From positions 1 through 23,684 of the IMG/VR virus record IMGVR_UViG_3300012936_000169: a stretch of DNA of 23,684 nucleotides. One strand, 5' to 3'. Shown here in pieces: positions 191-22,867 of this stretch (the stretch's first letter is position 1; each line of letters opens with the position of its first letter). The notes below the pieces were generated by a model. That model saw only the letters and a program-made list of their open reading frames with translations. It made no database searches and was not told where the DNA came from. The position numbers were made by a program, and so were the translations under genes. Source of the DNA: a virus.

Positions 191-198
191 GTAAATAC
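191..198 (+). promoter_or_regulatory. Late-type promoter of the HNH-like gene, predicted leaderless
   Basis: GTAAATAC lies five bases before the ATG at 203. By the spacing of T4 late promoters, the predicted transcription start is the A of the start codon. No Shine-Dalgarno site is visible. A TTGACA at 150-155 has no suitable -10 box at 16-18 bases. Confidence 0.5.
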
Positions 199-202
199 AA
201 AC

Positions 203-562
203 ATGCAATATAAAGACAGACCTTTGTGTACGGAGTGTAAGAACAAGCCTAGGGCATACGCCTATAAGAGATATGGCAGGGTATATTGGCGTAGCAAGTG
301 CGACACCTGTATTAGGAAAAAGGCGGGCAAGAAAGTTGGCGGTGTGACTGCATTACAAAGGTCAGGATACAAAAAACACCGTAAGTGTGAACTGTGTGGC
401 TTCAAAGCACAGAATAAAGCACAATTGGATGTATTGTTTGTTGATGGAGATCTTAGGAATACTAACGCTACAAATTTAAAAACTGTTTGCGCCAATTGCC
501 AAAGGTTGGGCAGTACCCGTAGACTTGGTTGGCGTGTCGGTGATCTTGTTGCTGATGACTAG
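203..562 (+). CDS. HNH-like zinc-ribbon protein, catalytic histidines not present
   Basis: The 119-residue protein has four Cys pairs: C9-C12, C33-C36, C62-C65 and C96-C99. The second half follows an HNH outline, with CELC, then LDVLFVDGDLRNT, then NLKTVCANC. In active HNH nucleases the segment usually reads VHHxDGD and ends NCH; here the first is VLFVDGD and the last is NCQ, so the usual catalytic and metal-binding histidines are missing. Similar proteins ending in a GDLxAD motif occur, as I recall, in cyanophages, so this may be a conserved non-nuclease family. The start at 203 is preferred over an in-frame ATG at 5, because the longer reading adds a hydrophobic stretch that is simply antisense to gp18. 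The last 87 bases overlap the dNMP kinase gene on the other strand. Function unknown; zinc-dependent nucleic-acid binding is an inference. Confidence 0.65.
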   Translation: MQYKDRPLCTECKNKPRAYAYKRYGRVYWRSKCDTCIRKKAGKKVGGVTALQRSGYKKHRKCELCGFKAQNKAQLDVLFVDGDLRNTNATNLKTVCANCQRLGSTRRLGWRVGDLVADD

Positions 563-1129
563 ATCGTCTATACTAGCATATAGTTCGTCTTTTGTGCCAT
601 TATTTTCAATCACAAAATCAAATTCTTCTTTCGCCCAGGCGTATTCTGAGGAGTGTATACCTTTAGGTTCAATGTTACCCTCAACATAGTCAACAAACCA
701 ATCAGGATCAGGTCCTCTTTTTACTAGTATTATTTTTCCGCCGTGTGCCCTTATCTGTTTTACTTCATTGGGAAATCTTGTGTCTGCTATCACGGTGTTT
801 TGGCCTTTGTATCTTCCAATGCAACTGTCAACCCAGATACCGTCGTACATCTGACCTCGCATTACTTCTGTGCCAAAGTACTGCAACACCCATCTCGGAG
901 TGGTTGGCTTGCCAAATTTCTCGCTCCAAAACTTGTCTGGTTGTTCCCTCCAATGTCTGCTGGATTCTGTATCTCCTTCAAGCATGGCTCTATCCCAATT
1001 AAACATTGACGCCACAGCATCTTTTAGACTTTTTGCGAAACTGTCTTTTTGATATCCATGTTTTTCTACAAGTCTGTCCGCTACTGTGCCTTTACCAGAA
1101 CTTATTAATCCTACTACACCTATTAACAT
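476..1129 (-). CDS. Deoxynucleoside monophosphate kinase (T4 gp1-like)
   Basis: A 217-residue P-loop kinase that would phosphorylate dNMPs to dNDPs for phage DNA synthesis in the cytoplasm. The Walker A loop is GLISSGKGT at residues 7-15, right after a short hydrophobic strand, as expected for this fold. Other family-like stretches are FAKSLKDAVA (31-40), WREQ near 60-63, LQYFGTE (82-88) and VIADTRFPNEV (113-123), whose DTR resembles the nucleotide-binding DTR of T4 gp1. Length is close to T4 gp1 (about 240). The final 20 or so residues (TDTPTKSTGTAQ and on) are low complexity and run antisense through the zinc motif of the HNH-like gene. The ATG at 1129 sits six bases after a consensus -10 box and has no Shine-Dalgarno site, so the transcript may be leaderless. 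Confidence 0.8.
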   Translation of the reverse strand: MLIGVVGLISSGKGTVADRLVEKHGYQKDSFAKSLKDAVASMFNWDRAMLEGDTESSRHWREQPDKFWSEKFGKPTTPRWVLQYFGTEVMRGQMYDGIWVDSCIGRYKGQNTVIADTRFPNEVKQIRAHGGKIILVKRGPDPDWFVDYVEGNIEPKGIHSSEYAWAKEEFDFVIENNGTKDELYASIDDLVISNKITDTPTKSTGTAQPLAIGANSF

Positions 1130-1135
1130 AGGATC

Positions 1136-1164
1136 ATTATACTATTTTTTTAGACGTTTTTCAA
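1136..1164 (-). promoter_or_regulatory. Sigma-70-like (early) promoter of the dNMP kinase gene
   Basis: The minus strand reads TTGAAA (1164-1159), a 17-base spacer, then TATAAT (1141-1136): five of six and six of six matches to consensus at the optimal spacing. The predicted start, seven bases past the -10, is the A of the ATG at 1129. The promoter lies within the end of the 60-residue gene upstream. Confidence 0.7.
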
Positions 1165-1324
1165 TGACTATTTTTGCTTCTTTTACCGCACCCAGAATGG
1201 TTTTTCTTATATCTAACTTTTTACTTTTCAAGGCACTTATAGACATATTTTCTAGATCATTTACAATTTGTTCTAGTTCGTCTATATTGCAATCTTCATA
1301 TTTCTTGTATCTGGAGTCCGTCAT
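1142..1324 (-). CDS. Small uncharacterised charged protein (60 residues)
   Basis: I do not recognise this protein. It is highly charged and probably all-helical. The middle reads IDELEQIVNDLENMSISALK, and a lysine-rich end follows (IVIEKRLKK). It has no cysteines, signal peptide or membrane segment. It lies 32 bases downstream of gp13 on the same strand and has its own TAAATA box (1338-1333) eight bases before the ATG. No Shine-Dalgarno site is clear. The promoter of the next gene is embedded in its 3' end. The codon content, small gap and own promoter box support a real gene; a short helical hairpin or coiled-coil partner of another late protein is only a guess. Confidence 0.6.
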   Translation of the reverse strand: MTDSRYKKYEDCNIDELEQIVNDLENMSISALKSKKLDIRKTILGAVKEAKIVIEKRLKK

Positions 1325-1332
1325 GACACAAT

Positions 1333-1340
1333 TATTTAAA
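1333..1340 (-). promoter_or_regulatory. Late-type promoter box of the 60-residue gene
   Basis: TTTAAATA on the minus strand, with eight bases to the ATG at 1324. The predicted start is a G three bases before the ATG. It lies in the short gap after gp13. Confidence 0.4.
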
Positions 1341-1356
1341 AGGATTTAGGGTGTTA

Positions 1357-2118
1357 TTAACCAATAACAAAACTGTGTGGTGTACCACCTTCTGCATAGT
1401 TTCCTATGTCTGCTTCTAGTCTTTCAATTTCTGCTTGGCCTTCTGCCTTCAAGGCATCGCCGTTCAATGTTGTGCCTCCTTGTGGTCCTGCAATGGTGTT
1501 GAATTTACCTCTTGCTTCGCCAAGCATAATTTTAGATACCGCAAGTGTATAATCTCTTATCCACGGTTTTGAATATATGTCTTTGAATAGTGTTATGTCA
1601 GGTCTAAAGTTATCTGTATGCATTAACACTGTTTCATTATCTGCTCTTGGTCGTTGAGTGATTGTTAATTTTTTTGTTGCATTGTCATAATGAAACTGTA
1701 TGAAACTTCCAAACAATTTTCCAACTAACTCTTGATATGATGCAAAAGCGTAATAAGTTGCTAGTCCACCTGTAGCACCTGCTCTTAAAAGGTACGTGTT
1801 AGTGTAAGCCAAGTTGAAAGGTTCAAAAAGTGTTCCGCCTTCACCACCCTCTGTACGTGATCCCACAGTTCTTCTGTGTAGACTTCTCACATTGATTACT
1901 TCATTAGGTAAGATGTATGTGTTTTGATTTTTCTTTAATTCTAAGAATGCGTATGACTCCTCAACAGCATTTGATGATCGCTGTCTGAATTTGTTGACCG
2001 CTCTTTCCAGTGCCGTTTGATAGTGTTTTGGGTCTAATTCTACGTCAATCATCCCGTCACCGAGACTGTTTTTAACGTAATCAAAGATTTCCTGTTGTCC
2101 TGTTTGTAGTTCTGACAT
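1357..2118 (-). CDS. 13: Neck protein gp13
   Basis: This 253-residue protein matches the T4-like gp13 family, which with gp14 forms the head-completion collar where the tail joins the capsid. Recognisable parts are the opening EIFDYVKNSLGDGMIDVELD, then YAFLELKKNQNTYILPNEV, and KPWIRDYTLAVSKIMLGEAR with GKFNTIAGPQGG near the end; the last two are typical of the cyanophage-type subfamily. In-frame ATGs further upstream (2199, 2124) exist, but the one at 2118 (MSELQTGQQ) is preferred: it lies exactly five bases past a perfect TATAAATA box, and the longer forms would run through the divergent gp14 promoter. No Shine-Dalgarno site is seen. gp14 is divergent, unlike in T4, where 13 and 14 are co-directional. 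Confidence 0.85.
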   Translation of the reverse strand: MSELQTGQQEIFDYVKNSLGDGMIDVELDPKHYQTALERAVNKFRQRSSNAVEESYAFLELKKNQNTYILPNEVINVRSLHRRTVGSRTEGGEGGTLFEPFNLAYTNTYLLRAGATGGLATYYAFASYQELVGKLFGSFIQFHYDNATKKLTITQRPRADNETVLMHTDNFRPDITLFKDIYSKPWIRDYTLAVSKIMLGEARGKFNTIAGPQGGTTLNGDALKAEGQAEIERLEADIGNYAEGGTPHSFVIG

Positions 2119-2123
2119 ACTCA

Positions 2124-2131
2124 TATTTATA
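2124..2131 (-). promoter_or_regulatory. Late promoter of gp13 (perfect T4 box)
   Basis: TATAAATA on the minus strand, identical to the T4 late consensus. Five bases (TGAGT) separate it from the ATG at 2118, so the predicted start of transcription is the A of that codon. Confidence 0.65.
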
Positions 2132-2145
2132 GTCATTGTCTGTGC

Positions 2146-2153
2146 AATAAATA
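2146..2153 (+). promoter_or_regulatory. Late promoter of gp14, divergent from the gp13 promoter
   Basis: AATAAATA on the plus strand, 14 bases from the gp13 box and pointing the other way. Eight bases separate it from the ATG at 2162. The predicted start is a G at 2159. No Shine-Dalgarno site. Confidence 0.6.
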
Positions 2154-2161
2154 TGTATGAT

Positions 2162-3331
2162 ATGCCAAGATTATCCATTTTTAAGCCTGAAAAGGGCAAC
2201 GACTACAAATTCTTTGATCGTAACATCCGTGAAATGTTTCAGGTGGGCGGTACAGATCTACACCTACACAAATACCTAGGTCCATACGACCAAGGAGATA
2301 CGAACAAGGACGGCCCAGCGTCTCCTAGTCAACCCAGAGTTACAGGCAGTGACCTTAACGAAACAACCATACAAGATTTACTGTTCCTAGAGAATAGAGA
2401 CAGAAAGTATTCTAGCGATATCTACACTGTGAGAGGCATATACAACGTCCAAGATGCAGACTTTAATTTGTCACAATTTGGAATGTTCTTACAGAATGAT
2501 ACCTTATTTTTGACTGTGCATCTCAACGATATAGTAGAGAGAATTGGCAGAAAACCCATGAGTGGAGATGTCATCGAATTCCCACACATGAAAGAAGATT
2601 ATTCACTTGACGAGAGTGTGCCTATAGCATTGAAAAGATACTACGTGGTTGAAGATGTAAACAGGGCCGCAGAAGGATTTTCGCAGACTTGGTGGCCTCA
2701 CTTGCTTAGATTAAAAATGAAAACTTTAGTTGATTCTCAAGAGTTCAAAGATGTCGTAGGTGATGCAACAACAACGGGATCGGTCGCAAGTTACATGAGC
2801 ACCTACAATAGAGAAAAAACAATAAATGATCAGATAGTTGCTCAGGCAGAACAGGACGCTCCGAAGTCAGGATTTAATTACAAACAATACTATGTTGCAC
2901 CTATAGATGAAAGAGGAAATATTAGAACTGAAAATGTTAATACGCAATCTCAAAGGGCAAGTAGCAACAATACAGTCAATGCAACAATAGATACACCTGC
3001 AAGTTCACACTATGGTTTCTACCTAGATGGTGATGGTGTTGCACCAAACGGAAATCCTGCAGGATTTGGTATTACATTTCCAACTTCGGGTGTAGACAAA
3101 GGTGATTATTTCTTAAGAACAGATTTCTTACCAAACAGATTATTCCGTTATGACGGAACTAGATGGGTAAAAATAGAAGATTCAGTCAGAATTAACATGA
3201 CTAACACAGATGGCAGGTTAAATTATAAGACAGGATTTGTAAACAACACAACAGAATCAACTATAAACGGATTGACAGTCAAGCAGAGACAGTCATTAAC
3301 GGATGCATTGAAACCAAAGGCTGACAATTAA
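2162..3331 (+). CDS. 14: Neck protein gp14 with a C-terminal extension
   Basis: A 389-residue protein. Its first 200 or so residues match the T4-like gp14 neck family: DIYTVRGIYNVQDADFNLSQ, then FGMFLQNDTLFLTVHLND, then SGDVIEFPHMKEDY, then WWPHLLRLKMK. T4 gp14 is 256 residues, so about 130 extra residues follow. The extension contains GDYFLRTDFLPNRLFRYDG followed by TRWVKIED, and resembles the end of gp15 next door (YRFNGTEWVK), so both neck proteins seem to carry a similar small decoration module. An in-frame ATG at 2153 overlaps the promoter box, so 2162 (MPRLSIF) is preferred. The stop is two bases before the gp15 start, so the two are co-transcribed. The pair acts at the head-tail joint. 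Confidence 0.85.
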   Translation: MPRLSIFKPEKGNDYKFFDRNIREMFQVGGTDLHLHKYLGPYDQGDTNKDGPASPSQPRVTGSDLNETTIQDLLFLENRDRKYSSDIYTVRGIYNVQDADFNLSQFGMFLQNDTLFLTVHLNDIVERIGRKPMSGDVIEFPHMKEDYSLDESVPIALKRYYVVEDVNRAAEGFSQTWWPHLLRLKMKTLVDSQEFKDVVGDATTTGSVASYMSTYNREKTINDQIVAQAEQDAPKSGFNYKQYYVAPIDERGNIRTENVNTQSQRASSNNTVNATIDTPASSHYGFYLDGDGVAPNGNPAGFGITFPTSGVDKGDYFLRTDFLPNRLFRYDGTRWVKIEDSVRINMTNTDGRLNYKTGFVNNTTESTINGLTVKQRQSLTDALKPKADN

Positions 3332-3333
3332 GA

Positions 3334-4776
3334 ATGTTACACTTTTACGAAGGACAGGTTAGGAAGTTTCTTACTCAATTTATTAGAATTTTGAGTAACT
3401 TTTCTGTTGAAACGGGCAAAGGTAAAGATGGTCAGATTAATTTACGTGCAGTTCCTGTAGTGTATGGAGATCCAACTAGACAGGTAGCAAATATTATTAG
3501 GAACAATTCTGAAAACGCTCTAAACTATGCACCTAAGATTGCCTGCTACGTGAGAGAATTGAACTATGACAGGGAAAGAATGCAGAATCCTTATCACATA
3601 GAAAAGCAACATTTAAGAGAAAGAGATGTTGACTCTGATGGAAACTACACAAACCAATTGGGTGCTGGATATACTGTTGAAAAGGTTATGCCATCTCCGT
3701 TCAGATTGGAAGTGTCAGCAGACATATTTTCGTCAAACACAGATCAAAAATTACAAATTATGGAGCAAATACTATATTTGTTTAATCCTGATTTTGAGAT
3801 ACAAAAAACAGACAATTACATAGATTGGACAAGTTTAAGTTATGTTGAATTAACTAACATAACATTCAGTTCCAGGACGATACCAGTTGGTGCCGAATCA
3901 GAAATAGATGTTGCAACATTACAATTTTCTATGCCAATATGGTTATCACCACCTGTAAAAGTTAAGAAGTTAGGTGTTGTACAAAAGATCATCATGAGCA
4001 TATACGACGACGATGGCGGCATAGCAAAAGGATTGATTGACGGAGAACTTACGTCTAGAAGTTACATCACACCAAACAATTTTGGTCTGTTAGTGACAGG
4101 AAATCAATTGAGATTATTGGGTACAACAGGAGTGAATGTGTCATCGGGTGGTGATGGATTCCACACTGGTGCGAGAGATCCGGGTCTAGCGGATCCATTT
4201 GAAACATTTGGACCAGCAGTAAACTGGAAAGTGCTGTTAGATCAGTATGGCAAAGTCACAAATGGTACATCTCAGATAAGATTAACACAGCCGAACGGCA
4301 ATGAGATTGTTGGCACAATCGCAACCACGACACTTGATGACACAATTTTATTATACACGATTGACGGTGACACAATACCAAGCAATACACTTACCGCTGT
4401 GAAGAAAATTATAAATCCTGCAACTTTTGATCCAGGCACACCTGCCAATGGAGACAGGTATTTGGTCATAAATGATGTTGGAGACAGCACAGCCAGTTTC
4501 CAAAGTGCAACATGGGGTACGCTTGTGGCGAGAGTAGGAGATATTATTGAATACAACAGTGCTACAGGCAAATGGAATATAGCCTTTGATGCCTCAAATC
4601 CAGATTCAACACAACATTATGTTACCAACTTGAACACTGGAATACAATACAGGTTTAACGGCACTGAATGGGTAAAATCCTACGAGGGAGTGTACACACA
4701 AGGTAATTGGAGTATTGTGCTTGACGGTGGTGCAGATCCTGGATATAACTCATCAATTGACGCTACCACTCCATAA
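3334..4776 (+). CDS. 15: Tail completion and sheath terminator protein gp15, with long C-terminal extension
   Basis: The first 230 or so residues of this 480-residue protein match T4-like gp15, which caps the tail tube and sheath and docks to the neck. Signals are YEGQVRKFLTQFIRILSNF at the start, LRAVPVVYGDPTRQ, then PSPFRLEVSADIFSSNTDQK followed by LQIMEQILYLFNPDF, and FSMPIWLSPPVKVKKLG. T4 gp15 is 272 residues, so about 230 residues are extra. The added part is Gly/Thr/Asn-rich and beta-like; its end (GDRYLVIND, GDIIEYNSATGKWNIAFD, YRFNGTEWVK) looks like the gp14 extension. The gene starts two bases after gp14. I see no good Shine-Dalgarno site, so translational coupling is likely. The terminator role is from the family; the extension's role is unknown. 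Confidence 0.8.
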   Translation: MLHFYEGQVRKFLTQFIRILSNFSVETGKGKDGQINLRAVPVVYGDPTRQVANIIRNNSENALNYAPKIACYVRELNYDRERMQNPYHIEKQHLRERDVDSDGNYTNQLGAGYTVEKVMPSPFRLEVSADIFSSNTDQKLQIMEQILYLFNPDFEIQKTDNYIDWTSLSYVELTNITFSSRTIPVGAESEIDVATLQFSMPIWLSPPVKVKKLGVVQKIIMSIYDDDGGIAKGLIDGELTSRSYITPNNFGLLVTGNQLRLLGTTGVNVSSGGDGFHTGARDPGLADPFETFGPAVNWKVLLDQYGKVTNGTSQIRLTQPNGNEIVGTIATTTLDDTILLYTIDGDTIPSNTLTAVKKIINPATFDPGTPANGDRYLVINDVGDSTASFQSATWGTLVARVGDIIEYNSATGKWNIAFDASNPDSTQHYVTNLNTGIQYRFNGTEWVKSYEGVYTQGNWSIVLDGGADPGYNSSIDATTP

Positions 4777-4786
4777 TTGCTATAAT
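4757..4786 (+). promoter_or_regulatory. Sigma-70-like (early) promoter of the DUF2061 and Nudix pair
   Basis: TTGACG (4757-4762), an 18-base spacer, then TATAAT (4781-4786). Only five bases lie between the -10 box and the ATG at 4792, so the predicted start is at the start codon. The -35 lies in the last codons of gp15. Confidence 0.65.
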
Positions 4787-4791
4787 ATAGC

Positions 4792-5097
4792 ATGAAATCT
4801 AAAGTATCTAGAAGTCTAACAAAGACTATCACTTGGAGAATATTGGCCACAAGTGATACCTTTCTTATTGCGTGGTTGATTACCGGCAAATGGAGTTGGG
4901 CCGGTGCTATAGCAGGAATAGAAGTAATCACAAAAATGTTTCTTTATTACGGGCATGAAAGAGTCTGGGACAAAATAAAGTGGGGTCGTGAACCATTAGA
5001 ACTACCAACTGAAATATTTCCGTCTGAAGACTGGAAAATTAAGAGACTAAAAAATTTTTTAAACAAGAAACATAAGAGATTGGCTAAATTATTATAA
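4792..5097 (+). CDS. DUF2061-family small membrane protein
   Basis: A 101-residue protein matching the DUF2061 family along most of its length: SRSLTKTITWRILATSDTF at residues 6-24, LIAWLITGKWSWAGAIAG at 25-42, IEVITKMFLYYGHERVWDKI at 43-62 and KWG at 63-65. Two membrane segments are visible at about 18-32 and 36-54, followed by a basic tail (KRLKNFLNKKHKRLAKLL) that would lie on the cytoplasmic side. The biochemical role of the family is unknown; it is common in marine bacteria and occurs in some of their phages. It has its own sigma-70-like promoter immediately upstream and no Shine-Dalgarno site. Its stop overlaps the Nudix start (TAATG), so the two genes form a unit. Expression earlier than the surrounding late genes is inferred. 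Confidence 0.85.
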   Translation: MKSKVSRSLTKTITWRILATSDTFLIAWLITGKWSWAGAIAGIEVITKMFLYYGHERVWDKIKWGREPLELPTEIFPSEDWKIKRLKNFLNKKHKRLAKLL

Positions 5098-5525
5098 TGA
5101 AAGAAAATATAGTTTGCTCAGGTGCTCTGTTTTACGCAACCAGCACTAAACGTTTCCTATTCCTACAAAGGACTGACAAGAAAACACAGGGCATGTGGGG
5201 ATTGGTAGGCGGTAAAAGCAAGTTCACTGAAAGTGCATTCGAAGGATTAAAGAGAGAAATTGAAGAAGAAGTAGGCAGTTTGCCGAAATTTAAAAAAGTA
5301 ATCCCCTTAGAAATGTTCACATCTAACGATCAGAAATTCTTTTTTCACACATATTTGATTGCAATTGAATCAGAATTTATTCCTAAATTAAACGGAGAAC
5401 ATTCAGGATACTGCTGGACTGCGTTTGAATGTTGGCCCAAAAATCTACACATGGGTCTAAAAAATACTTTGAACAACAAAAGTATAAAAGGCAAGTTACA
5501 GACTATATTGGATCTGATTGTCTAA
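5097..5525 (+). CDS. Nudix hydrolase
   Basis: A 142-residue Nudix protein that would hydrolyse a nucleoside diphosphate linked to another group, such as an oxidised dNTP, ADP-ribose or an RNA cap. The Nudix box is complete at residues 39-61 (GKSKFTE, seven residues, then REIEEEVG), with the catalytic REUxEE glutamates present; only the final hydrophobic position is Ser. Upstream, FLFLQRTDKKTQGMWGLVGG gives the beta-strand and W-G-x-x-G-G loop usual in the family. The substrate cannot be told from sequence. The TAATG overlap with the DUF2061 gene suggests translational coupling. The stop overlaps by four bases the stop of the convergent fibre gene, leaving no room for a terminator. Confidence 0.9.
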   Translation: MKENIVCSGALFYATSTKRFLFLQRTDKKTQGMWGLVGGKSKFTESAFEGLKREIEEEVGSLPKFKKVIPLEMFTSNDQKFFFHTYLIAIESEFIPKLNGEHSGYCWTAFECWPKNLHMGLKNTLNNKSIKGKLQTILDLIV

Positions 5526-6007
5526 GGTTTATTAGTTGCTGTTATATAGTAAGCATCGCCGTCCCACAACAGATGAACATTATTTTCTCCAGCAATAGTA
5601 TCTAGTGAGTGTGTGAAGTTTGCATCAACCGAACCGCTTGTATTATAACTTTTAAATTTCACTACAATGTTACCACCGCCGTTATATCGTCTAGCAATTA
5701 AAATTACTCTCGTACCTACCGTTGTTGCATCAGGTAGACTGAAGTAATTTGTGCTTCCGCTTTGTCTGTTCCAGATGTATACGGATTTACCTGACTCTAA
5801 TGCTGTTGGTGAGCCACTACTAGTGCTTCCATTACTTGTAATTGTTTGAATATCAGGATTAGTGTTAATTGCTACGCCACCGGCTGTTGTACCATCAGAC
5901 ACTTTAAGTGTTTTTGCGTCTGTGTCTAATATTAATTCTCCAGTATCGCCAATGTGTACAGTCGCACTTTCGGCTATGTGTTTGAACTTAAATTTTCTCG
6001 TTGCCAT
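5522..6007 (-). CDS. Small appendage or fibre protein with an Mtd-N-like motif
   Basis: A 161-residue protein. After a short basic start (MATRKFKFKHIAES) comes VHIGDTGELILDTDAKTLKV with SDGTTAGG, the GEL...DT..LK..DGTT pattern seen at the N-terminus of many phage adhesins (the Mtd-N type motif). The rest is beta-rich and ends in WDGDAYYITATNKP. It may be a small trimeric adhesin or a connector in the fibre apparatus. A GTAAATA box overlaps the stop codon of the upstream 1379-residue gene, and exactly five bases separate it from the ATG, which has no Shine-Dalgarno site. It probably belongs to the same late programme as the long fibre upstream. Family membership is tentative; the gene itself is secure. 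Confidence 0.75.
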   Translation of the reverse strand: MATRKFKFKHIAESATVHIGDTGELILDTDAKTLKVSDGTTAGGVAINTNPDIQTITSNGSTSSGSPTALESGKSVYIWNRQSGSTNYFSLPDATTVGTRVILIARRYNGGGNIVVKFKSYNTSGSVDANFTHSLDTIAGENNVHLLWDGDAYYITATNKP

Positions 6008-6012
6008 AATAA

Positions 6013-6019
6013 TATTTAC
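6013..6019 (-). promoter_or_regulatory. Late-type promoter overlapping the stop codon of the 1379-residue fibre gene
   Basis: GTAAATA on the minus strand; its TAA is the stop codon of the upstream gene. Five bases (TTATT) then lead to the ATG at 6007, so the predicted transcript starts at the start codon. Confidence 0.5.
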
Positions 6020-9000
6020 TCGTGCTTAATATATGATTTACCTGTAAGTTTTTCAATGTCTCGAATCATTTCTTCCATGTTCACCCTTACAGTTTTTCCA
6101 GTTTTTGTGTTTCTTGAGAAGTACTCCCACTCACCTTTTTCATTGTGAGGAGATATTTTAGTAACGTTACCCGCTTCGTCTCTTACGAACACTTCAGCAC
6201 TTGATGATTCGTCCTTGGCGTATATGTGTGCGATATCTGTTGTAGTGTTTGGATCACCTGACAGAACACCTAGTTCAACATGTCCTGTAACCCTCAGACT
6301 GGTATCGTTCAATAATTGTAAACTGTCAGATCTAAATCTTCCTGAGATGTTGTTTGATCCGTTTTTCTTGAACGCAAATTCTAGGATACCATCCTCAGAT
6401 CCATCTGCACTATCTAAGATCTTACCTGAAATTTTGGCATAGAGAACTTCCTGGTCTGCATCGTTCTCACCTTGGAATTTGATCTGTCCCAGGTAGTCTG
6501 CGTTTGCAACGCTCGAACTGTTTCTTTTCAGATTTATTACTGGCCCTGCCGTGCTTGAATCCTCTGTTGTTGTGATGTCTAATGCATCGCTTGTCGATGT
6601 GTTCGTTATTGATGCTCCTGTGCTTGTCGTCTCAAAAACAGTTGTACCGTAATGTTTTAATTTTACTGCACCAGAGGAACCATCTGCTACAATATATTCA
6701 GTGATTCCACCACTGCCGTCATCTGTGGAAATTACAACATCCTTGTCATTGGCATAAGTTCTGATGTTGATGTCACCTGTTGTTTCGTTGACATTAAGGT
6801 TAGTGCCTGTGTGCTTGATATTGGCATCTGTGTCTGTTCCAAATTGTAGTTCAATGCTGTCCGCAAGTATGGTGTTACCTGCAAGATCGATCTTGCCCGT
6901 ACCCTGTGGATCTAATGTGATATTTGCGTTGGAGCCTGGTGATTGTATTGTATCAGTCAACACACCTGCTGTGAATGTTTTTTGTCCTGTAATTGTTTGA
7001 TTATTACTTGTAAGAACAGATAGACTGGTTGACGCACCTGCCTGGTTACGTAGTAATTGTACCCTATAACCATTAACCGTTGTTGAAGCACCACTGGTGC
7101 TCGCCGCTGATAATGTCACTGTAGACCCGCTCAATGACGCTGTAAAGGTTAGTTGATCTGTGCCTTTAGTAGATACCTGTGGTCCTGTTGCCACATACGC
7201 ATTTTCCGAATCTGCCACTACAAACACTTCACTGATCGATGCCGCTGATTCCGAACTGCTGTTTCCAACTATCACATAGTGAGCACCGTTGAACGAGTCT
7301 GTGCTAAATGTGTCAAACTCGGTCGCAGAACTCGATACAGTCACCTGTCCAACTGTTTTTGTATTGTCACTGGTTGCGTCTGATTCTGCATCACCTAGTA
7401 AGACTCTGTACATCTTGACAGCAGTATTAGGTTCATTTCCTGATGCTCTTAGTCTTACACTGCCGCTGTCTATGTCCGCAGTAAGGCTTATCAATGAATT
7501 GCTTCCTGTGAATGTGTCGTTGTACATTGTTATAAATGCATCTGTACCGTTGTGTACAACCAAACATTCTATATTTGTTAGTTCAGTTTTAGATGAGTTA
7601 TTGGCACTTATGTAATACTTTGCACCCCTGTACGATGATGCTGACCATGTGTCTAAGTTTTCTGTGGCACTATCAACATCTGTGTTAAGAATGAATGCTG
7701 TGTTTCCTGAACTGGATGCAGATGTGTTGTCACCCAGACCTATTCTAAAGAACTTCACGGAGTTTACGTCTGCGGTTCCTGTACCTCTTAACCTTACCGT
7801 GGTGCCCGAAAAGTCTGCGTCAAAGGCCACCTGCGTGTTAGTTCCCGATCTCACTATACCACCCGTTGATGTGAATGCCGCTGTGTCGTTATGTACTAAA
7901 CTGACAGCCTGTGTTGCAATTTCATTGTTTATTTCGTCTAAGGTAACCATTTGATAGAACACACTGTCAAATGCTGTCCTCTCAAACGTGTCCACGTTGA
8001 CTGCCGACGTTGATATACTTGTCTTCTCTCCTGTACTAGTACCACTAGCCTCTGTTGTCGTGGCAGTTTTGGCAATATTCACCCATCCTGACGTGTCGTA
8101 TCTTTCATACGTGTCAGTGTCTGTGTTGTATCTAATCATACCAGTGACAGAACTGCTAGGTCGATTTGCTGTGCTACCTTTTGGAAGTGTTAAAGACCCG
8201 GTAGTCCCACTTAGGCTTAAATTTTCTTCATCTAGGTCAATGTTATTGTGCTTAATGAATAGATCATCAGTTGATGTTCCACTTACTCTGTAAATATTTT
8301 CTGATTCCATGGCAAGTCTTGCAAAATAAATTTTGGTGTTAGGATTGCAACTTGCTCTCAATCTTGCTTTTCCACTTGATACATCTGCTGAGAATGTTGC
8401 AAGTGTGTTGTCTGCTGTGATTACGAAACTTTCACTGATTGTTGCATCTGTTCCAGCGTCATTCACGGTCATTATTATTTCTGAGTTCTGGTATTCAGAT
8501 CCAGATTCCATTGTTACAAAATATCTTGCCGCTTTGAATTTGAACACATCAAATGAGTCAACCGTCTCAACCGTTGAGTCAATATCTGCTTTGATACCAT
8601 ACAAGTAGTTGTCGAACTCGCCTAGTTTAGTCTTAGAACCTAGATCCTGTCTGTATAGTATTGCTGTACCTGTTGTGTTACCCGCGGACAGTCCACTTAA
8701 AGTTACTGTCGCACCTGATATGGCCGCACTAAAACTGAAAGGTGGGGTACTTCTGCTAGATGTTGCGCCGTAAGTGTCATGGAAAACTGTTGTTCCATCG
8801 TGTGTCAAACTCACCTCAGATATTTGATAATCACCTCCCGTGTCATCTTTAATCAATATAACGTATTTTGCACCTCTTATATCTGTTTTTGTGAATTGAT
8901 CAAGTGTTGTCGCTCCTGATCCTATGTTCGTTGAAGTGGCTATGATTTTTGAATTGGTGTTTGCAACAGTTTCGTGATGATCACCTAGTGCTACCCTATA

Positions 9001-10155: not shown

Positions 10156-10164
10156 ACTAGGGTA

Positions 10165-10246
10165 CTCCTTTATAATAATGTTAGCGTGTCAAATGACACA
10201 CACGGCCTCGTTATCGTTGCCGGCCGACAGCAGTGCTAGTATTTAT
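10165..10246 (-). promoter_or_regulatory. Late promoter and structured leader of the giant fibre gene
   Basis: ATAAATAC on the minus strand (10246-10239) lies just after the methyltransferase stop codon. The predicted start is at 10234, an A. The leader can form a 5-bp CGGCC/GGCCG stem (10203-10207 with 10222-10226) and a 7-bp stem with an AUUU loop (10184-10190 with 10195-10201, one G-U pair). It ends in AAAGGAG at 10171-10165. Confidence 0.55.
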
Positions 10247-10247
10247 G

Positions 10248-10823
10248 CTATTTGAATGACCACACCTGATCAGGCCATATTTTGGCGATTCTGATCATGC
10301 CCCAATCTTTAAGTAGATCATGCACCTGTTTCTTGTGTATTCCGTATCTCTGCCCGGCTTTGTTCATCTCTATTTGTAGCAATGGCTTTTGTTCTGTGAT
10401 TGTTTGCTTGGCACCATTCAACACGGCCAACTCATACCCCTCAACATCTATTTTGACCACATCTACATTGGTGAAATTATAACTATCTAGGGTGTTGATC
10501 TCAATGTCTCCTTGTAATTCTGTCACGTGATTGGTACCTGAATGCTTGTCATATCCCATTGACACAGTGCCTTTTTTATCACCTAGTGCTGTTCTATGGA
10601 GTGTGCAGTTGTCGTAGGGCGAAATGTTATGTTCAAGCATTGTTAGTATTTTGGGATTTGGTTCAAATATTTCTAATTTTTCCGCATGTGGTTGCCAATG
10701 CAAAGACCATGGACCCCACCATGCTCCTACGTCTATGATACGCCTTAGTTTCTTGTCTGCGACATGCTCGGATAGTATGTCGTAATTGCCGTTGGGATCA
10801 GTGAAGTCAATTTGTACAGTCAT
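10248..10823 (-). CDS. FkbM-family SAM-dependent methyltransferase
   Basis: A 191-residue class I methyltransferase of the FkbM type, which usually O-methylates sugars or related small molecules. Motif I for S-adenosylmethionine is RIIDVGAWWGPW (28-39); an acidic strand follows (EIFEPNP, 51-57); the FkbM block VDVVKIDVEGYELAVLNGA is at 120-138; and LLQIEMN is at 148-154. At 191 residues it is compact but looks complete. It sits between fibre genes, so methylation of a host surface glycan or a glycan on phage particles is plausible but not shown. The ATG directly follows the eight-U tract of an intrinsic terminator, with no room for a Shine-Dalgarno site. No later in-frame ATG precedes motif I. 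Expression may need terminator read-through or an unusual initiation. Confidence 0.87.
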   Translation of the reverse strand: MTVQIDFTDPNGNYDILSEHVADKKLRRIIDVGAWWGPWSLHWQPHAEKLEIFEPNPKILTMLEHNISPYDNCTLHRTALGDKKGTVSMGYDKHSGTNHVTELQGDIEINTLDSYNFTNVDVVKIDVEGYELAVLNGAKQTITEQKPLLQIEMNKAGQRYGIHKKQVHDLLKDWGMIRIAKIWPDQVWSFK

Positions 10824-10854
10824 AAAAAAAAGGGCGATGTTGCCACCGCCCTTT
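10824..10854 (-). terminator. Intrinsic terminator abutting the methyltransferase start codon
   Basis: Read on the minus strand, AAAGGGCG (10854-10847) pairs with CGCCCTTT (10836-10829), and eight U (10831-10824) follow. The ATG at 10823 comes immediately after the last U. It would end transcripts from the 385-residue fibre gene. Confidence 0.8.
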
Positions 10855-10874
10855 GATTCTATTAAAAAGTATAG

Positions 10875-10882
10875 GTATTTAC
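10875..10882 (-). promoter_or_regulatory. Late-type promoter box upstream of the terminator and methyltransferase
   Basis: GTAAATAC on the minus strand, overlapping the stop codon of the 385-residue gene. The following bases (CTATACTT) resemble those after other boxes here (CTACAGTT). The predicted start at 10870 lies before the hairpin, so a transcript would carry the whole terminator as its leader. Confidence 0.4.
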
Positions 10883-12039: not shown

Positions 12040-12058
12040 AGTTCCATATTTCCCTTAT

Positions 12059-12076: not shown

Positions 12077-12086
12077 GTTAAGTCGT

Positions 12087-12128
12087 AAAAAAAACGCCCT
12101 AACAGTAGTATTTACCATTAGGGCGTTT
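12087..12128 (-). terminator. Intrinsic terminator of the 596-residue fibre gene, with a late-promoter box in its loop
   Basis: An 11-bp perfect stem (12092-12102 with 12118-12128; AAACGCCCTAA and its complement) encloses a 15-base loop and is followed on the minus strand by eight U (12094-12087). The loop contains GTAAATAC (12115-12108), whose predicted start is at 12103, the last loop base. Confidence 0.85.
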
Positions 12129-12159
12129 AGAATTATCTTTAAGGTTCTAGTTTTGCCTA

Positions 12160-13950: not shown

Positions 13951-13995
13951 TGTTTTATCCCCTTATCGATAATTGATTGTCTTGCAAAACTGTAG

Positions 13996-14004
13996 GTATT
14001 TATT
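13996..14004 (-). promoter_or_regulatory. Late promoter of the 596-residue fibre gene
   Basis: AATAAATAC on the minus strand, followed by CTACAGTT. The 15 bases TAAATACCTACAGTT are identical to those at the promoter of the 144-residue protein (22865-22851). The predicted start is an A at 13991. Confidence 0.6.
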
Positions 14005-14026
14005 TGAAACCTGTATTAATCCACCG

Positions 14027-14034
14027 TTAAATAC
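14027..14034 (+). promoter_or_regulatory. Late-type promoter of the 14043 gene
   Basis: TTAAATAC with nine bases to the ATG at 14043; the predicted start is an A at 14039, leaving a 4-base leader. The box lies inside a short inverted repeat, CCGT-TAAAT-ACGG. It is divergent from the promoter at 13996-14004. Confidence 0.45.
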
Positions 14035-14042
14035 GGTAAGAT

Positions 14043-14573: not shown

Positions 14574-14929
14574 AGCAAGAAACAACCAATTACATAATAA
14601 AAGTATTGTGGCCACCACACTGCCAGAACAGGGGTCTAAAAGTCTTAGAAGAACGTGCAGACATAGTCAATGAGATGAACGGAATGAGGACCAAAATTGA
14701 AAATTTTTTGAAAGCATCATGCAGTGGGTATTTTAAAGTAAGTGATGAATACAACATGAAAGGTTTCAACGTTGGATTTGAACAAGGTCCGGACGTTTAT
14801 AACTTTATACTAGAGCAAGCCACTATAGGTTACGAGGTGGACAGAGAGATAGGCAGATATAACATCTTCTCAGGCAAGTACATCAAGCACAGATTATTGT
14901 ATACTGCAAAAGGTATTGTGATAGGTTAG
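14570..14929 (+). CDS. Uncharacterised protein (119 residues)
   Basis: I do not recognise it. It is soluble and mixed alpha/beta: TNYIIKVLWPPHCQNRGLKV near the start, a charged helix (LEERADIVNEMNGMRTKIEN), then NVGFEQGPDVYNFILEQATI and a basic C-terminal strand (KYIKHRLLYTAKGIVIG). The start overlaps the stop of the upstream gene (ATGA), so the two are translated as a pair. The stop overlaps by four bases the stop of the convergent 348-residue fibre gene, leaving no space for a terminator. The codon pattern and tight packing on both sides argue that it is a genuine gene. Confidence 0.7.
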   Translation: MKQETTNYIIKVLWPPHCQNRGLKVLEERADIVNEMNGMRTKIENFLKASCSGYFKVSDEYNMKGFNVGFEQGPDVYNFILEQATIGYEVDREIGRYNIFSGKYIKHRLLYTAKGIVIG

Positions 14930-18900: not shown

Positions 18901-19676
18901 GTGTAACGTGTGTTTGCTCCTGCTGTCGGCACTGTGGTTACGGTCAAAGTTACTGTGTCACCAGCACTGATACTCGTTGAATCTGCCACAAAGGAAACTG
19001 ATTTTAGGTAGGTTCCTGCCTGTACGTTACCAAGCACTTCGTTTAGTTCATCAATTGCATTCGTAACTTTTGTAGAAGAATCAAATCCTAAGTATGCACC
19101 ATCACCAAATGTTGAATCTGTTGGCAGTCTAAGTTCAACGTTATCACCAGTAACACCACTGCTTGACACAGTTGTGATCTGATCATCCACATATTTCTTA
19201 GTTGATGCGTCAGAGTCCGCGGTAGGCTCTCCAACTTGGACCTTAGCAAGTGTCATGTTTGAAAAGTCTGTCACCGTTGAGCCGTCCTGTGTTGTCGTTC
19301 CAAATCTAAATTTATCTAGAGTTTCGTCCCAAATGAATAATGCGTTGTTTTCTGCTGTCCTGTTGATCATTATACCTGCATCTGTCTTACCTGATGCATT
19401 CTCATTGATCGTTATTATGTTGTCTTCTACAACTAAATTTTGTGAGTCTATGGTTGTGGTTGTACCTTGGACAGTAAGGTCACCTGTGATTATTTGGTTA
19501 CCTGATACTCTTGTATTTCCGTTTACATCTAAGGCAAAATTGCCCGGAGAGTCAGTTTTAACACCAATTCTTCCGTTTGTTACATCTACATATAGTAAAT
19601 TCGTTTGGAACGCTAGGTCACTCGACCTAAGCAGGTTCGCTTCTAATATATCACCACTTATTCTGTTAATTGCCAT
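15972..19676 (-). CDS. Long fibre protein with PKD-type domains (1234 residues)
   Basis: The anchor module (MAINRISGDILEANLLRSSD, TNLLYVDVTNGRIGV) starts at the ATG at 19676. An in-frame ATG at 19715 adds 13 residues and includes the promoter box, so it is rejected. Next come the shared block LTVQGTTTTIDSQNLVVEDN (67-86), NALFIWDETLDKFRFGT and KKYVDDQI. From about residue 226 there are PKD-type beta domains with the WGDG signature at 262-265 and 367-370 and HTY closers; a third, weaker one (YNFGEGD, about 496-502) follows. PKD folds usually mediate binding to polysaccharide or protein. The end (AAPGTAIDSASGLNGWLTAS, then YAGSGVPGS) resembles a receptor-tip domain. It shares the TAATG junction with the 348-residue gene. 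No Shine-Dalgarno site; the predicted leader is about 7 bases. Confidence 0.83.
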   Translation of the reverse strand: MAINRISGDILEANLLRSSDLAFQTNLLYVDVTNGRIGVKTDSPGNFALDVNGNTRVSGNQIITGDLTVQGTTTTIDSQNLVVEDNIITINENASGKTDAGIMINRTAENNALFIWDETLDKFRFGTTTQDGSTVTDFSNMTLAKVQVGEPTADSDASTKKYVDDQITTVSSSGVTGDNVELRLPTDSTFGDGAYLGFDSSTKVTNAIDELNEVLGNVQAGTYLKSVSFVADSTSISAGDTVTLTVTTVPTAGANTRYTITWGDGNTDTASADSTPSHTYSSGGTFSVTVKAFENDAGTTDSAGSFATSTRSNYIVASTAEPNLTFAMYANPTGGSPITKADNGATVYLQNNCTNTSGATVTYDVDWGDGTEQTISGDGTAGGSSANGGTRLAHTYNNSAGDDGSTVAGTGTGDTKYAIRLRLLTHSTANPSVIPKTATNNFEVYSTHTPLYSTAGSTIRGINEEATSGFPVTFTNDTATNPGANTAFSATQQYTYNFGEGDSAVTTPIGGGGTGDTGNTISNTFNLSTSDQNNGVTTKFTTSLNLSNGHSSSPFSSNVNIIVEPDVRANIAGTAVTVNTGSGDNSLSLYDVTDLDGTDRAIARFTNTSQNADNYVYDFFDDSSSLTAVVENGSDAGSIGATLDKDYSGTSAGNINFRFRASGQPDTFFQDDEETITFVMKSTPSAPAGLSSKSLTLSDSAQGTNPHLCANFDDATGSADTLAAGTSLESTTARRYTSSTPIDTNTVTNFLVNDANGTGSTVNQTVTASINGSASGARTFTTSEGGANNNTFTDLVITNHRDYDEVDASYPQRLYLVATAKIAQALTDYTAGLNAQRIESSAGGNTNYVHVVRDLLTGRPTTTIGTVTQGTQGSLRYVSGIPYYNSGSPTLTVTGTTVANFTGQAYQDTASPHEYGGGTNQESTTGEVLASDPTTFTYAQIDGSSTMLSGGIPVKNTGVGSPYTLGTLTIPIGPSSTKTVKTIGAKSRNANGDESSYDEDTTKIQVYTATPSLLDKEDGGITVSDSLGDGFNDDAVRISGFGSLSGDTPALFDSSNANYYTDSAWSGAETVAGTNEAISRFGTIKHFTTDLSSGYLPAGPDLNTGRSGAQYFNFAFRRTLMNTFTIRLSGKVSGVFIAAPGTAIDSASGLNGWLTASETYAGSGVPGSDTGNGGNGSDGCASTPGDRIVDNTTYSNQTFAMNLGTQNSSNATGNNVLIRIKLESGDSVTALSIE

Positions 19677-19688
19677 AATACTACTTTC

Positions 19689-19696
19689 GTATTTAC
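19689..19696 (-). promoter_or_regulatory. Late-type promoter of the PKD fibre gene
   Basis: GTAAATAC on the minus strand. The ATG at 19676 is 13 bases beyond TAAATA+C; the predicted start is a G at 19684. It is half of a divergent pair with 19725-19731. Confidence 0.5.
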
Positions 19697-19724
19697 CAAA
19701 TCCACACAACGACACAGATCAACC

Positions 19725-19731
19725 ATAAATA
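19725..19731 (+). promoter_or_regulatory. Late-type promoter of the 288-residue fibre gene
   Basis: ATAAATA with eight bases to the ATG at 19740, so the predicted leader is two or three bases. No Shine-Dalgarno site. It is divergent from the promoter at 19689-19696. Confidence 0.5.
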
Positions 19732-19739
19732 TTCATTAT

Positions 19740-20606
19740 ATGACACTATTACCTATCAATAAAATTGAAAGAGTTGCCGAAAAACGTGTTGACGTCAGAC
19801 AAGTTGATGTGTATGAGAACAGCATCAGTGGAGACGCTATCCATGGTGGCAGAATCACAAACTTCAACAGCACAGGTATTAAGGACGAAGCAGAATCATT
19901 ACAGATAACTGTTGCTGATGACAAGATTGAAGTACAAAATGATCTTGTTGTAAAGGGCACTGTCACTGTTGAGAATTTAAAATACGTTGAAGCACAGGTG
20001 CCAAAACTTAATGTCACAAATGCTGTGATGATAGATCACAATGAAGTGATCTGGAAAGACACATTAGGCAAAAGTGTTAAGACAAGTTCACTTACACAAC
20101 TTGGCGTGTTGAAAAATCTCCAAGTAGATAAAACACTTTTTGCATCACAGAATAGAGTTGGTATCAATACTGAAGCACCGTCGGCAGAGTTTTCAGTCAA
20201 CGTTGATGGGTATGAAGTCATTACTACCATGCACGAAAGAAATGCCTATGTTGGCACACATTCTCCCTCAGCATTTGGTATAGGAACCGACAACACAGCA
20301 AGAATTATCTGCAAGTCAAATGGCGATATTGTATTAGGCAATGAAAATGAAACTGCTACCAATGTCACTGTGGTAGGTAAGTTAGGGGTAGGAGCAAAAA
20401 ATCCTCAAGAAAGTTTGCATGTTGTTGGAAATTTAAGATTTGCTGAAAGAACTTTTTCATCAGGGTCGCATTCTCCAAAAGAAAAAAGATGGGAGACAGG
20501 ATCAATAGTATGGAATGATAAGCCAGAAATAAATCAACCAGTAGGATGGGTATGTGTTAAAAGTGGTACCCCAGGCAGTTGGAGACCGTTCGGTCAAATC
20601 AGTTAA
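19740..20606 (+). CDS. Fibre or appendage protein on the plus strand (288 residues)
   Basis: A beta-rich structural-type protein. The start (MTLLPINKIERVAEKRVDVR) differs from the anchor module of the other fibres. The middle holds NRVGINTEAPSAEFSVNVDG and KLGVGAKNPQESLHVVGN, the GVGT.NPxxxLxVxG pattern common in phage fibre repeats. The end (ETGSIVWNDKPEINQPVGWV, then CVKSGTPGSWRPFGQ) is a familiar closing motif of marine phage appendage proteins. It is the only fibre-type gene in the cluster on the plus strand. It converges on the 154-residue gene with a 10-base gap and no terminator, so the two transcripts would overlap at their ends. The exact place in the particle is unknown. Confidence 0.78.
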   Translation: MTLLPINKIERVAEKRVDVRQVDVYENSISGDAIHGGRITNFNSTGIKDEAESLQITVADDKIEVQNDLVVKGTVTVENLKYVEAQVPKLNVTNAVMIDHNEVIWKDTLGKSVKTSSLTQLGVLKNLQVDKTLFASQNRVGINTEAPSAEFSVNVDGYEVITTMHERNAYVGTHSPSAFGIGTDNTARIICKSNGDIVLGNENETATNVTVVGKLGVGAKNPQESLHVVGNLRFAERTFSSGSHSPKEKRWETGSIVWNDKPEINQPVGWVCVKSGTPGSWRPFGQIS

Positions 20607-20616
20607 GAAATAAAAA

Positions 20617-21081
20617 TTAAGAACCTAATTTATGTAGATTGTGTATCACAGCAATAATGTGTCCGCTGTCTACACCGTTGTTGGCTGGTGGCGCTGATCC
20701 AAATGTTATTGCTCCGCCTGAATATGTGTAGTGTGTTCCTGGCACTTGGTAAACACCACCAATGAATATCTGTAAATCAGTGGCATCTGTTGGTTCCACG
20801 GTCAAGTTTGCCGCAGTTGATCCGTCAAGTGTGTTACCTGATCCATTTCCAAAAACAGTTGTTGAACCATCACCTTGGAATGTATCCACTGTCAAAGTTT
20901 TTTCTCTTGATGCTTCTGAAACATTGTACCATTGTGCACCATTGTACACTTGATAAGTTGATGTTGTTGTGTTAAAAATTATCTGTCCGTTCTTACCACT
21001 TGGTCTGTTTGCAGTGGTAACTTGAGGGATTTCTAAAGTTTGCCCTTGTGTAGCCTCTGGGTTTTTTACATATCTACCCAT
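20617..21081 (-). CDS. Small fibre-type protein (154 residues)
   Basis: After GQTLEIPQVTTANRPSGKNG comes IIFNTTTSTYQVYNGAQWYN, the RP...FNTTT motif shared with four other proteins here. A GDGSTTVFG segment follows, and then LQIFIGGVYQVPGTHYTYSG with ITFGSAPP, the VYQxPxxxY block also present in the 596- and 348-residue fibres. It is essentially the C-terminal half of those fibres as a free-standing protein, so it may be an accessory adhesin or a tip module. It is third in a minus-strand series of three genes (22257 to 20617) with gaps of 1 and 5 bases, so it is probably transcribed with them. No convincing Shine-Dalgarno site is seen. Confidence 0.78.
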   Translation of the reverse strand: MGRYVKNPEATQGQTLEIPQVTTANRPSGKNGQIIFNTTTSTYQVYNGAQWYNVSEASREKTLTVDTFQGDGSTTVFGNGSGNTLDGSTAANLTVEPTDATDLQIFIGGVYQVPGTHYTYSGGAITFGSAPPANNGVDSGHIIAVIHNLHKLGS

Positions 21082-21086
21082 GACTA

Positions 21087-21422
21087 TTATAATCCTATCG
21101 TTGATATCGTGGCTATGATCTGACCAGAAGAGTCTGGAAGTTCTATGAAAATCTTATCACCATTTGCCAATATTAATTTTTCAGTGTCTATGATATAAGT
21201 GTCTGTTGCTTGGATTGTCAACTGGTTGTAAAGTTTGTTGTTCACAGTTGGTGCAGTTGTTGAACCATCGCTTGGAAGCAAGTACACGTTCACTACTGCA
21301 TCTGCCGCCGACGATATGTTACAAAGGTGTATCGTAGTAACAGCCGTGTCTGCCGTTGCCGTGAACACCGCCGTGCCCAATTGTTCTGCTGATCCGTCAA
21401 TTCTTGTCTGTGTTATCGCCAT
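21087..21422 (-). CDS. Small beta-rich structural-type protein (111 residues)
   Basis: A protein with no recognised name. It starts MAITQTRIDGSAEQLGTAVF, then TTIHLCNISSAADAVVNVYL, and ends LILANGDKIFIELPDSSGQI. The pattern (a threonine-rich strand, HLCN, V-V-VYLLPSDG, then ANGDKI) resembles small beta-sandwich virion proteins often found next to tail fibres in marine phages. No membrane segment and a single cysteine. The ATG is one base after the stop of the 277-residue gene, with AGGA just upstream inside that gene's last codons, so it is likely translated by coupling. It may decorate or cap the neighbouring fibre, but that is inference from context. Confidence 0.72.
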   Translation of the reverse strand: MAITQTRIDGSAEQLGTAVFTATADTAVTTIHLCNISSAADAVVNVYLLPSDGSTTAPTVNNKLYNQLTIQATDTYIIDTEKLILANGDKIFIELPDSSGQIIATISTIGL

Positions 21423-21423
21423 A

Positions 21424-22257
21424 TTATCCTAACGCAATAGCCAAAGCCGTTGCTTTCTTTTTACTTATCAGTTCTCCTTCTGCTCCTGAACTGATGTTTG
21501 AGTTGATGAAATACAATCCTGTACCGCCACCTGCCGCTGTTTTGTTGTATAATTTTGTTACTGTTGTTGCAGTTGGTGTACTTGCCGCCGCTGAAAACGT
21601 TAAAATATCGTTGATCACTATGTGACCTGTACCGTTCGCTTTCAATTCTAAATTTCCATTTGATGCGTCACTTGTTACTGATGTGATCCCTGTTAAGTCA
21701 TTGTCAAGGCTTATAGTAATTGTATCTGGTTCTGAGCCTTTTGTGTTGATATTTGAGCCACCAACGTATTGTAAAATTTGGTTTGAACCAACTGTAATTG
21801 CAGTTGAATCGTCACCTGCAATCTTAAGTGTAAATGCACCTGAGGATGCATCAACATAACTTTTTGTAGCCGCATCTGATCCAGATGTAGGTTCACCAAC
21901 TTGTATTTTGGCTAAAGCCGTGTCGGCAATTGAAGTTCCTGTTCCGTCTGAAGTTGTTGTGACTGCTTTGAAAACGTCATCGCCTTCGTTCCAATAAAGT
22001 GCCGCGTTGTTTGCCGCTCCTCTGTTTACTAAAATACCTGCGTCAACATCACTTGGAGTTGAATTGTTTCTGCTTAAAATTATGATTGGATCTTCGATAG
22101 TTAAATTTGCAGTATCTACTGTGGTGCTTGTACCTTCGATGTCCATGTCACCTAAAACTTTAAGCGTTTTAGCGTCTATTATGACAGAGTTTGATCCACC
22201 CGCGCCAGCACCTGCTTTAATTGTATAATCTGTTGATGTTCGTAAATGCTTTGCCAT
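21424..22257 (-). CDS. Fibre-type protein (277 residues)
   Basis: A short N-terminal segment (MAKHLRTSTDYTIKAGAGAG) leads into MDIEGTSTTVDTANLTIEDP, then ILSRNN...GILVNRGAANNAALYWNEGD, the shared TVNGTTTT...WDES block of the 596-, 385- and 1234-residue fibres. AKIQVGEPTSGSDAATKSYV follows, which closely matches AKVQVGEPTADSDASTKKYV of the 1234-residue fibre. The C-terminal half is beta-rich and ends in GELISKKKATALAIALG. It is first in a three-gene series. The late box ATAAATA is seven bases from the ATG, without a Shine-Dalgarno site. The absence of the MAIxRI anchor suggests that it attaches differently from the three long fibres. Confidence 0.8.
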   Translation of the reverse strand: MAKHLRTSTDYTIKAGAGAGGSNSVIIDAKTLKVLGDMDIEGTSTTVDTANLTIEDPIIILSRNNSTPSDVDAGILVNRGAANNAALYWNEGDDVFKAVTTTSDGTGTSIADTALAKIQVGEPTSGSDAATKSYVDASSGAFTLKIAGDDSTAITVGSNQILQYVGGSNINTKGSEPDTITISLDNDLTGITSVTSDASNGNLELKANGTGHIVINDILTFSAAASTPTATTVTKLYNKTAAGGGTGLYFINSNISSGAEGELISKKKATALAIALG

Positions 22258-22264
22258 TTGCTAT

Positions 22265-22271
22265 TATTTAT
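22265..22271 (-). promoter_or_regulatory. Late-type promoter of the 277-residue gene and its series
   Basis: ATAAATA on the minus strand, seven bases from the ATG at 22257. The predicted start is an A at 22259, two bases before the start codon. No Shine-Dalgarno site. Confidence 0.5.
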
Positions 22272-22850: not shown

Positions 22851-22867
22851 AACTGTAGGTATTTACC
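22851..22867 (-). promoter_or_regulatory. Late promoter of the 144-residue gene
   Basis: GGTAAATACCTACAGTT on the minus strand. The predicted start is an A at 22854. The last 15 bases match the promoter at 14002-13988 exactly. Confidence 0.6.

Follow-up and report, generated by a model that had tools for sequence, protein, structure and literature searches.

Leaderless mRNAs are usually regarded as exceptions in phages, and the late genes of T4 are textbook cases of mRNAs led by a Shine–Dalgarno (SD) sequence. The T4 late promoter is an 8-bp element, TATAAATA, located at −13 to −6 and used by the gp55/gp33/gp45 system, and the late promoters of Aeh1 vary at positions −13/−12 (PMC2988020). Lambda cI is a known leaderless mRNA (PMC9031893), and in S. 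meliloti 171 leaderless mRNAs, a small fraction of the genes and all starting with AUG, were mapped by RNA-seq (PMC3616915). Phage transcripts have been described as "often leaderless", in a source that holds no T4-type data (PMC5312081); another (PMC4848604) contains nothing on leaders, and the literature searched yielded no account of late genes being leaderless in T4-like or SAR11 phages.

The virus fragment analyzed here (the window) comprises 23,684 bp and comes from a T4-superfamily phage. Its genes include a gp1-like dNMP kinase, gp13, a gp14-like gene, a tail-sheath or sheath-stabiliser-like gene, several fibres, and the end of a gp23-like capsid gene; starts were called by a simple ORF scan. 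By gp14, the nearest isolates are Agrobacterium phage Atu_ph07 and Sinorhizobium phage Phosso, with ~37% identity, and at least 597 relatives of the window are present in IMG/VR. A previous sequence-only reading had claimed that TAAATA boxes and two sigma70-like promoters lie so close to many start codons that the mRNAs should begin at or within a few bases of the ATG. All the coordinates on which it relied were correct when checked again. The arrangement TAAATA-N5-ATG was found at 192–205 (plus strand), 2129–2116, and 6018–6005 (both minus strand), and nowhere else in the window, and six further boxes are located 7–13 nt from an ATG. The TAAATA core (−11 to −6) was the search word and is hence present at every box, and TA at −13/−12, as in the 8-bp T4 consensus, was observed in the window at the gp13 box only. 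The short-spacing late boxes, and the genes with an assigned function that follow them, are the following:

192–197, plus strand: late box TAAATA, 5 nt from ATG 203 of the HNH-like gene
203–562, plus strand: HNH endonuclease-like gene, predicted leaderless (PHROG 10822, E = 1.7e-4)
1333–1338, minus strand: late box, 8 nt from ATG 1324 of a 60-aa gene (1142–1324)
1357–2118, minus strand: gp13 head–tail adaptor, predicted leaderless (PHROG 211, E = 2.8e-33)
2124–2129, minus strand: late box, full TATAAATA, 5 nt from gp13 ATG 2118
2148–2153, plus strand: late box, 8 nt from ATG 2162 of gp14 and forming a divergent pair with the gp13 box
2162–3331, plus strand: gp14-like virion protein, predicted 3-nt leader, GAU-AUG (PHROG 11591, E = 2.3e-83)
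6013–6018, minus strand: late box, 5 nt from ATG 6007 of a 161-aa gene (5522–6007)
14028–14033, plus strand: late box, 9 nt from ATG 14043 of a 176-aa gene
19690–19695, minus strand: late box, 13 nt from ATG 19676 of a 1234-aa gene, predicted 8-nt leader without SD
19726–19731, plus strand: late box, 8 nt from ATG 19740 of a 288-aa gene, divergent from the box at 19690–19695
22265–22270, minus strand: late box, 7 nt from ATG 22257 of a 277-aa gene

In the window, TAAATA is non-random in its placement, not in its abundance. The total number of occurrences was at expectation (17 versus 17.2). In the 60 nt upstream of the 23 starts, however, three boxes had a spacing of exactly 5 nt, where 2000 dinucleotide shuffles gave a mean of 0.03 and a maximum of 1, and nine had a spacing of 5–13, where the shuffles gave a mean of 0.28 and a maximum of 3. 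A further occurrence, at 8291, falls within the 1379-aa gene, on the strand opposite to it, and is probably due to chance. The scoring of TAAATA-to-ATG distances was extended to relatives and here, as with the shuffles, the outcome was the one that the sequence-only reading had predicted. Among distinct contexts in 80 relatives, TAAATA was never found 0–4 nt before an in-frame ATG, but 49 times at spacing 5 and 81 times at 6–9, followed by 10 at 10–19, one at 20–34, and 43 at 35–60; no other anagram of TAAATA combined a floor at 5 with a mode at 5–8. Because these contexts are related by descent, the safer count is that of gene families, about 28–40 independent ones per spacing class by N-terminal grouping, which overcounts. 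When a different gene of the clade was used to retrieve loci, these gave 104, 77, 48, and 36 boxes at spacings 5, 6, 7, and 8, respectively, and a near relative of 196.6 kb (capsid fragment 90% identical) gave 9, 10, 7, and 3, with none at 0–4, so that 29 of its ~63 boxes are at spacing 5–8. Among more distant capsid relatives, long contigs included, the pattern was blurrier (15 at spacing 4 and 30 at spacing 5). A few of the TAAATA close to an ATG are probably a stop codon followed by an SD (TAAATAGGAG), and whole-record pattern counts made without gene starts were too noisy to use.

Late boxes are also found at longer range. The sequence-only reading had set the short-spacing starts, for which it saw no clear SD, against several genes that do have one, and both observations held in the window: no SD was present upstream of the short-spacing genes, and SD-like sites with long leaders precede five others:

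126–131, minus strand: late box, 39 nt before the left-edge gene (sheath-like start), SD AAGGAG
10240–10245, minus strand: late box, 84 nt before the 1379-aa gene, SD AAAGGAG
13997–14002, minus strand: late box, 46 nt before the 596-aa fibre gene, SD AAGGGG
22860–22865, minus strand: late box, 102 nt before the 144-aa gene, SD AAAGGAG
23260–23265, minus strand: late box, 45 nt before the 77-aa gene, SD GGGAGG

This second class of late promoters, with leaders of about 37–40 nt or longer and usually an SD, is also present in the relatives, and the box of the sheath-like gene kept a spacing of 39–41 in 18 ortholog contexts. In the 196.6-kb relative, the short class includes the terminase large subunit, a gp4-like head-closure protein, a tail-tube-like protein, gp13, and enzymes, and the long class the sheath-like gene, baseplate proteins, and virion proteins. 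The capsid gene has its own SD and no box within 200 nt. Our impression is that the split sorts low-copy from high-copy products.

The long-leader boxes provided an estimate of the transcription start that is independent of any ATG. Across 76 distinct contexts, the sixth base after TAAATA was a purine in 87% (78% when weighted by gene family), compared with 21–45% at positions 1–5 and 7–8, and this peak has a pyrimidine just before it. The sixth base is thus the estimated +1, which matches the T4 geometry (PMC2988020). In agreement with the earlier remark that this base is nearly always a purine, it was one in 15 of 16 cases among the window's boxes located before genes, the exception being the T at the 19726 box. 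At spacing 5, the base before the ATG was a pyrimidine in 90% of cases (weighted, ~28 family groups), so the A of the ATG is the predicted +1. In the pelagiphage set, a pyrimidine preceded the ATG in 28 of 29 boxes at spacing 6, consistent with a start at the A, and at spacing 8 position 5 was always a pyrimidine and position 6 a purine in 94%, from which a 3-nt leader is predicted. The 3-nt leader of gp14 was derived from this same pyrimidine–purine step at positions 5/6. An in-frame ATG at 2153 overlaps the gp14 box itself and would fall upstream of +1; the start implied by the promoter is therefore 2162.

With such starts, spacings of 5–8 leave no transcribed room for an SD. The start codons at these spacings were ATG in 340 of 342 cases, with one GTG and one CTG, and the first 45 nt of short-spacing genes were less folded than those of SD genes (−2.9 versus −4.0 kcal/mol, p = 0.01, kinship ignored). 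The proposal of systematic leaderless initiation can thus be kept as far as promoter placement is concerned, but since spacings of 7–13 would give leaders of about 2–8 nt, the word leaderless should apply strictly only at spacing 5 and probably 6.

The divergent gp13/gp14 region illustrates the conservation. The two ATGs are 43 bp apart, with both boxes between them. The gp13 box was exactly 5 nt from its ATG in 35 of 35 distinct contexts (72 loci), with spacers as different as TGAGT, CGACT, TGTAC, TGTGT, or TAGGT, and the gp14 box was at 8 nt in 33 of 33 (74 loci). Across the 78 loci, almost without exception, the two boxes and their spacings have been retained as the intervening bases drifted, which argues for selection. 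Other boxes behave similarly: that of the HNH-like gene was at 5 nt in 10 of 12 ortholog contexts and at 7 in the other two, again with different spacers; that of the 60-aa gene was at 6–8 nt across 36 distinct contexts; that of the 176-aa gene was at 9–10 nt in six; and that of the 161-aa gene was at 5 nt in the locus L077 as well.

The same placement was observed for promoters of the sigma70 type, which adjoin the ATG in the window as had been claimed, and whose spacing of 5–7 nt is conserved in relatives:

476–1129, minus strand: deoxynucleoside monophosphate kinase (gp1-like), predicted leaderless (PHROG 139, E = 3.9e-45)
1136–1164, minus strand: sigma70 promoter TTGAAA-17-TATAAT, 6 nt from ATG 1129, 11/12 match
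4757–4786, plus strand: sigma70 promoter TTGACG-18-(TG)TATAAT, 5 nt from ATG 4792, 11/12 match
4792–5097, plus strand: 101-aa gene, predicted leaderless, between the sigma70 promoter and a NUDIX gene (5097–5525)

For the first promoter, the 6 nt to the ATG predict that +1 is the A of the start codon. In relatives, TATAAT was found 5, 6, and 7 nt from an ATG in 50, 27, and 9 distinct contexts, respectively, and rarely at other spacings, and a −35 element matching in at least five of six positions was present at 98 of 111 of these short-spacing sites, versus 2 of 111 shuffled ones. In relatives that have no 101-aa gene, the NUDIX ATG lies 5 nt from what seems to be this same promoter. Apparently one promoter thus serves two unrelated genes at 5 nt each, and what is kept is the spacing, not the gene.

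Taken as a whole, the sequence evidence makes it very probable that leaderless or near-leaderless (0–3 nt) mRNAs, of both late and sigma70 type, are made in this clade beside SD-led mRNAs. T4-type late promoters with the core TAAATA would be read by a gp55-type sigma on the host RNA polymerase, and host sigma70 promoters would be used too; in a large class of both, transcription would start at the A of the first AUG or up to about 3 nt upstream. These mRNAs would presumably be translated through recognition of the 5′-terminal AUG rather than SD pairing; the other late genes (sheath-like, fibres, and some virion genes) would have leaders of ~40 nt or longer, usually with a strong SD, and the split between the two may set the level of expression. 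A gp55-type late sigma is encoded, outside the window, in the 196.6-kb near relative G033 (L496:16869–17921, minus strand; phrog_12791, E = 7e-85), where the clamp loader gp44 was also found and gp33 and gp45 had no match with HTVC008M or Syn9 queries. Like the leaderless mRNAs of S. meliloti and lambda cI, those predicted here would have a 5′-terminal AUG, use AUG only, and have no SD. They differ from the S. meliloti ones in being predicted from sequence and in involving many phage genes of the late and sigma70 types.

Three other explanations were considered. The boxes could be real but minor late promoters, with the translated mRNAs arriving by read-through from upstream and carrying ordinary leaders. 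Some short-spacing genes do lie closely behind another gene on the same strand, yet between the divergent gp13 and gp14 genes upstream transcription could come only from the antisense strand of the other gene; the box of a 463-aa gene in relatives follows a terminator-like T-run; and the starts have no upstream SD, all of which makes read-through unlikely. That the predicted ATGs are misassigned, the true starts being internal ATGs behind normal leaders, is suggested by additional in-frame ATGs at the gp13 and gp14 boxes. We consider it very unlikely, since the gp13 N terminus is coding from the spacing-5 ATG in nearly all loci, some loci (L016, L025) have lost the in-frame ATG upstream of it, and internal starts would produce neither the spacing floor at 5 nor the pyrimidine before the ATG.

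AT-rich phages have A/T-rich start regions, and TAAATA near an ATG might be an A/U-rich translation enhancer or a matter of start-region composition instead of a promoter. This we regard as extremely unlikely: the spacing pattern is absent for the other anagrams, the same box stands at long range before SD genes with its +1 signature, the sigma70 promoters keep the same spacing and have −35 elements, and a gp55 homologue is present in a near relative.

Compared with T4, the promoters of the window clade have in common a −10-like TATA box without a −35 element and a +1 about one helical turn downstream. T4 late boxes, however, are mostly 16–30 nt from the ATG, with an SD, and none is at 5–8 in 50 kb, whereas the window clade has a large class at 5–8 nt without SD and a core TAAATA rather than TATAAATA. 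Zero or one box at 5–8 nt was found in 41–50 kb of each of T4, Syn9, P-SSM2, phiM12, Phosso, Atu_ph07, PA5oct, SCTP-2, a Vibrio jumbo phage, and the OM43 phage Melnitz, and leaders were mostly 16–60 nt in these T4, cyanophage, rhizobial, Pseudomonas, Vibrio, Salicola, and OM43 phages. Atu_ph07 and Phosso share gp14 and TAAATA boxes with the window clade but have none of the boxes at 5–8 nt (41 kb each), their leaders being mostly 23–30 nt or longer, with an SD. The Pelagibacter phages HTVC008M and Mosig (Kyanoviridae), with their group, resemble the window clade in having a pyrimidine before the ATG, and TAAATA is exactly 5 nt from the ATG in 12 genes of the whole HTVC008M genome and in 5–6 genes in 50 kb of Mosig. 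They belong to another lineage, however; their late genes mostly have leaders of 16–60 nt, and their TATAAT promoters form no class at 5–7 nt. Relatives of HTVC008M had 14 boxes at spacing 5 and 21 at spacing 6.

A link of the short-spacing class to SAR11-like hosts is plausible, and comes from two isolates of one lineage. Tentatively, and with more doubt than confidence, we suggest that at least two marine T4-superfamily lineages may have come independently to place their late promoters on the start codon, in response to streamlined hosts (SAR11 for the two isolates) that initiate translation largely without SD pairing, and that leaderless versus SD-led mRNAs could act as a dial between low-copy products (neck, terminase, enzymes) and high-copy ones (sheath, fibres). 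If leaderless initiation in the clade is confirmed, a common marine T4-type clade would offer a natural setting for its study at scale, gene callers and promoter filters that require an SD or intergenic space would misjudge starts in such genomes, and the connection of host ribosome preference with phage promoter architecture would become a testable one.

Other features of hosts and phages were also inspected. Besides HTVC008M and Mosig, the phages Melnitz, Atu_ph07, and Phosso and the relative G035 encode the ribosomal protein bS21, which had no match in G033, T4, or Syn9; its presence therefore does not track the short-spacing trait. No tRNA genes, looked for as a clue to the host, were found in the 196.6-kb relative. 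In a SAR11 genome, TATAATN6ATG was not clearly enriched genome-wide; at divergent starts there was a modest peak at the predicted spacing of 6 (11 versus a background of 4.4, sd 2.1), and control words gave similar peaks at other offsets. SD matches before genes in the SAR11 genome pieces L223–L252 were barely above those in shuffled upstream sequence.

A strong intrinsic terminator (12092–12128, minus strand) has a late box (12114–12109) within its hairpin, so that promoter and terminator have sequence in common. The methyltransferase ATG at 10823 comes directly after the T-run of a terminator (GGGCGGTGGCAACATCGCCCTTTTTTTTATG, 10823–10881, minus strand), and a late box precedes this terminator. 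At the 463-aa tail-tube-like gene (L009, L033, L027, and others), a T-run, a late box, and the putative leaderless ATG all fall within ~30 bases (TTTTTTTGTGACTATAAATAACACTATG).
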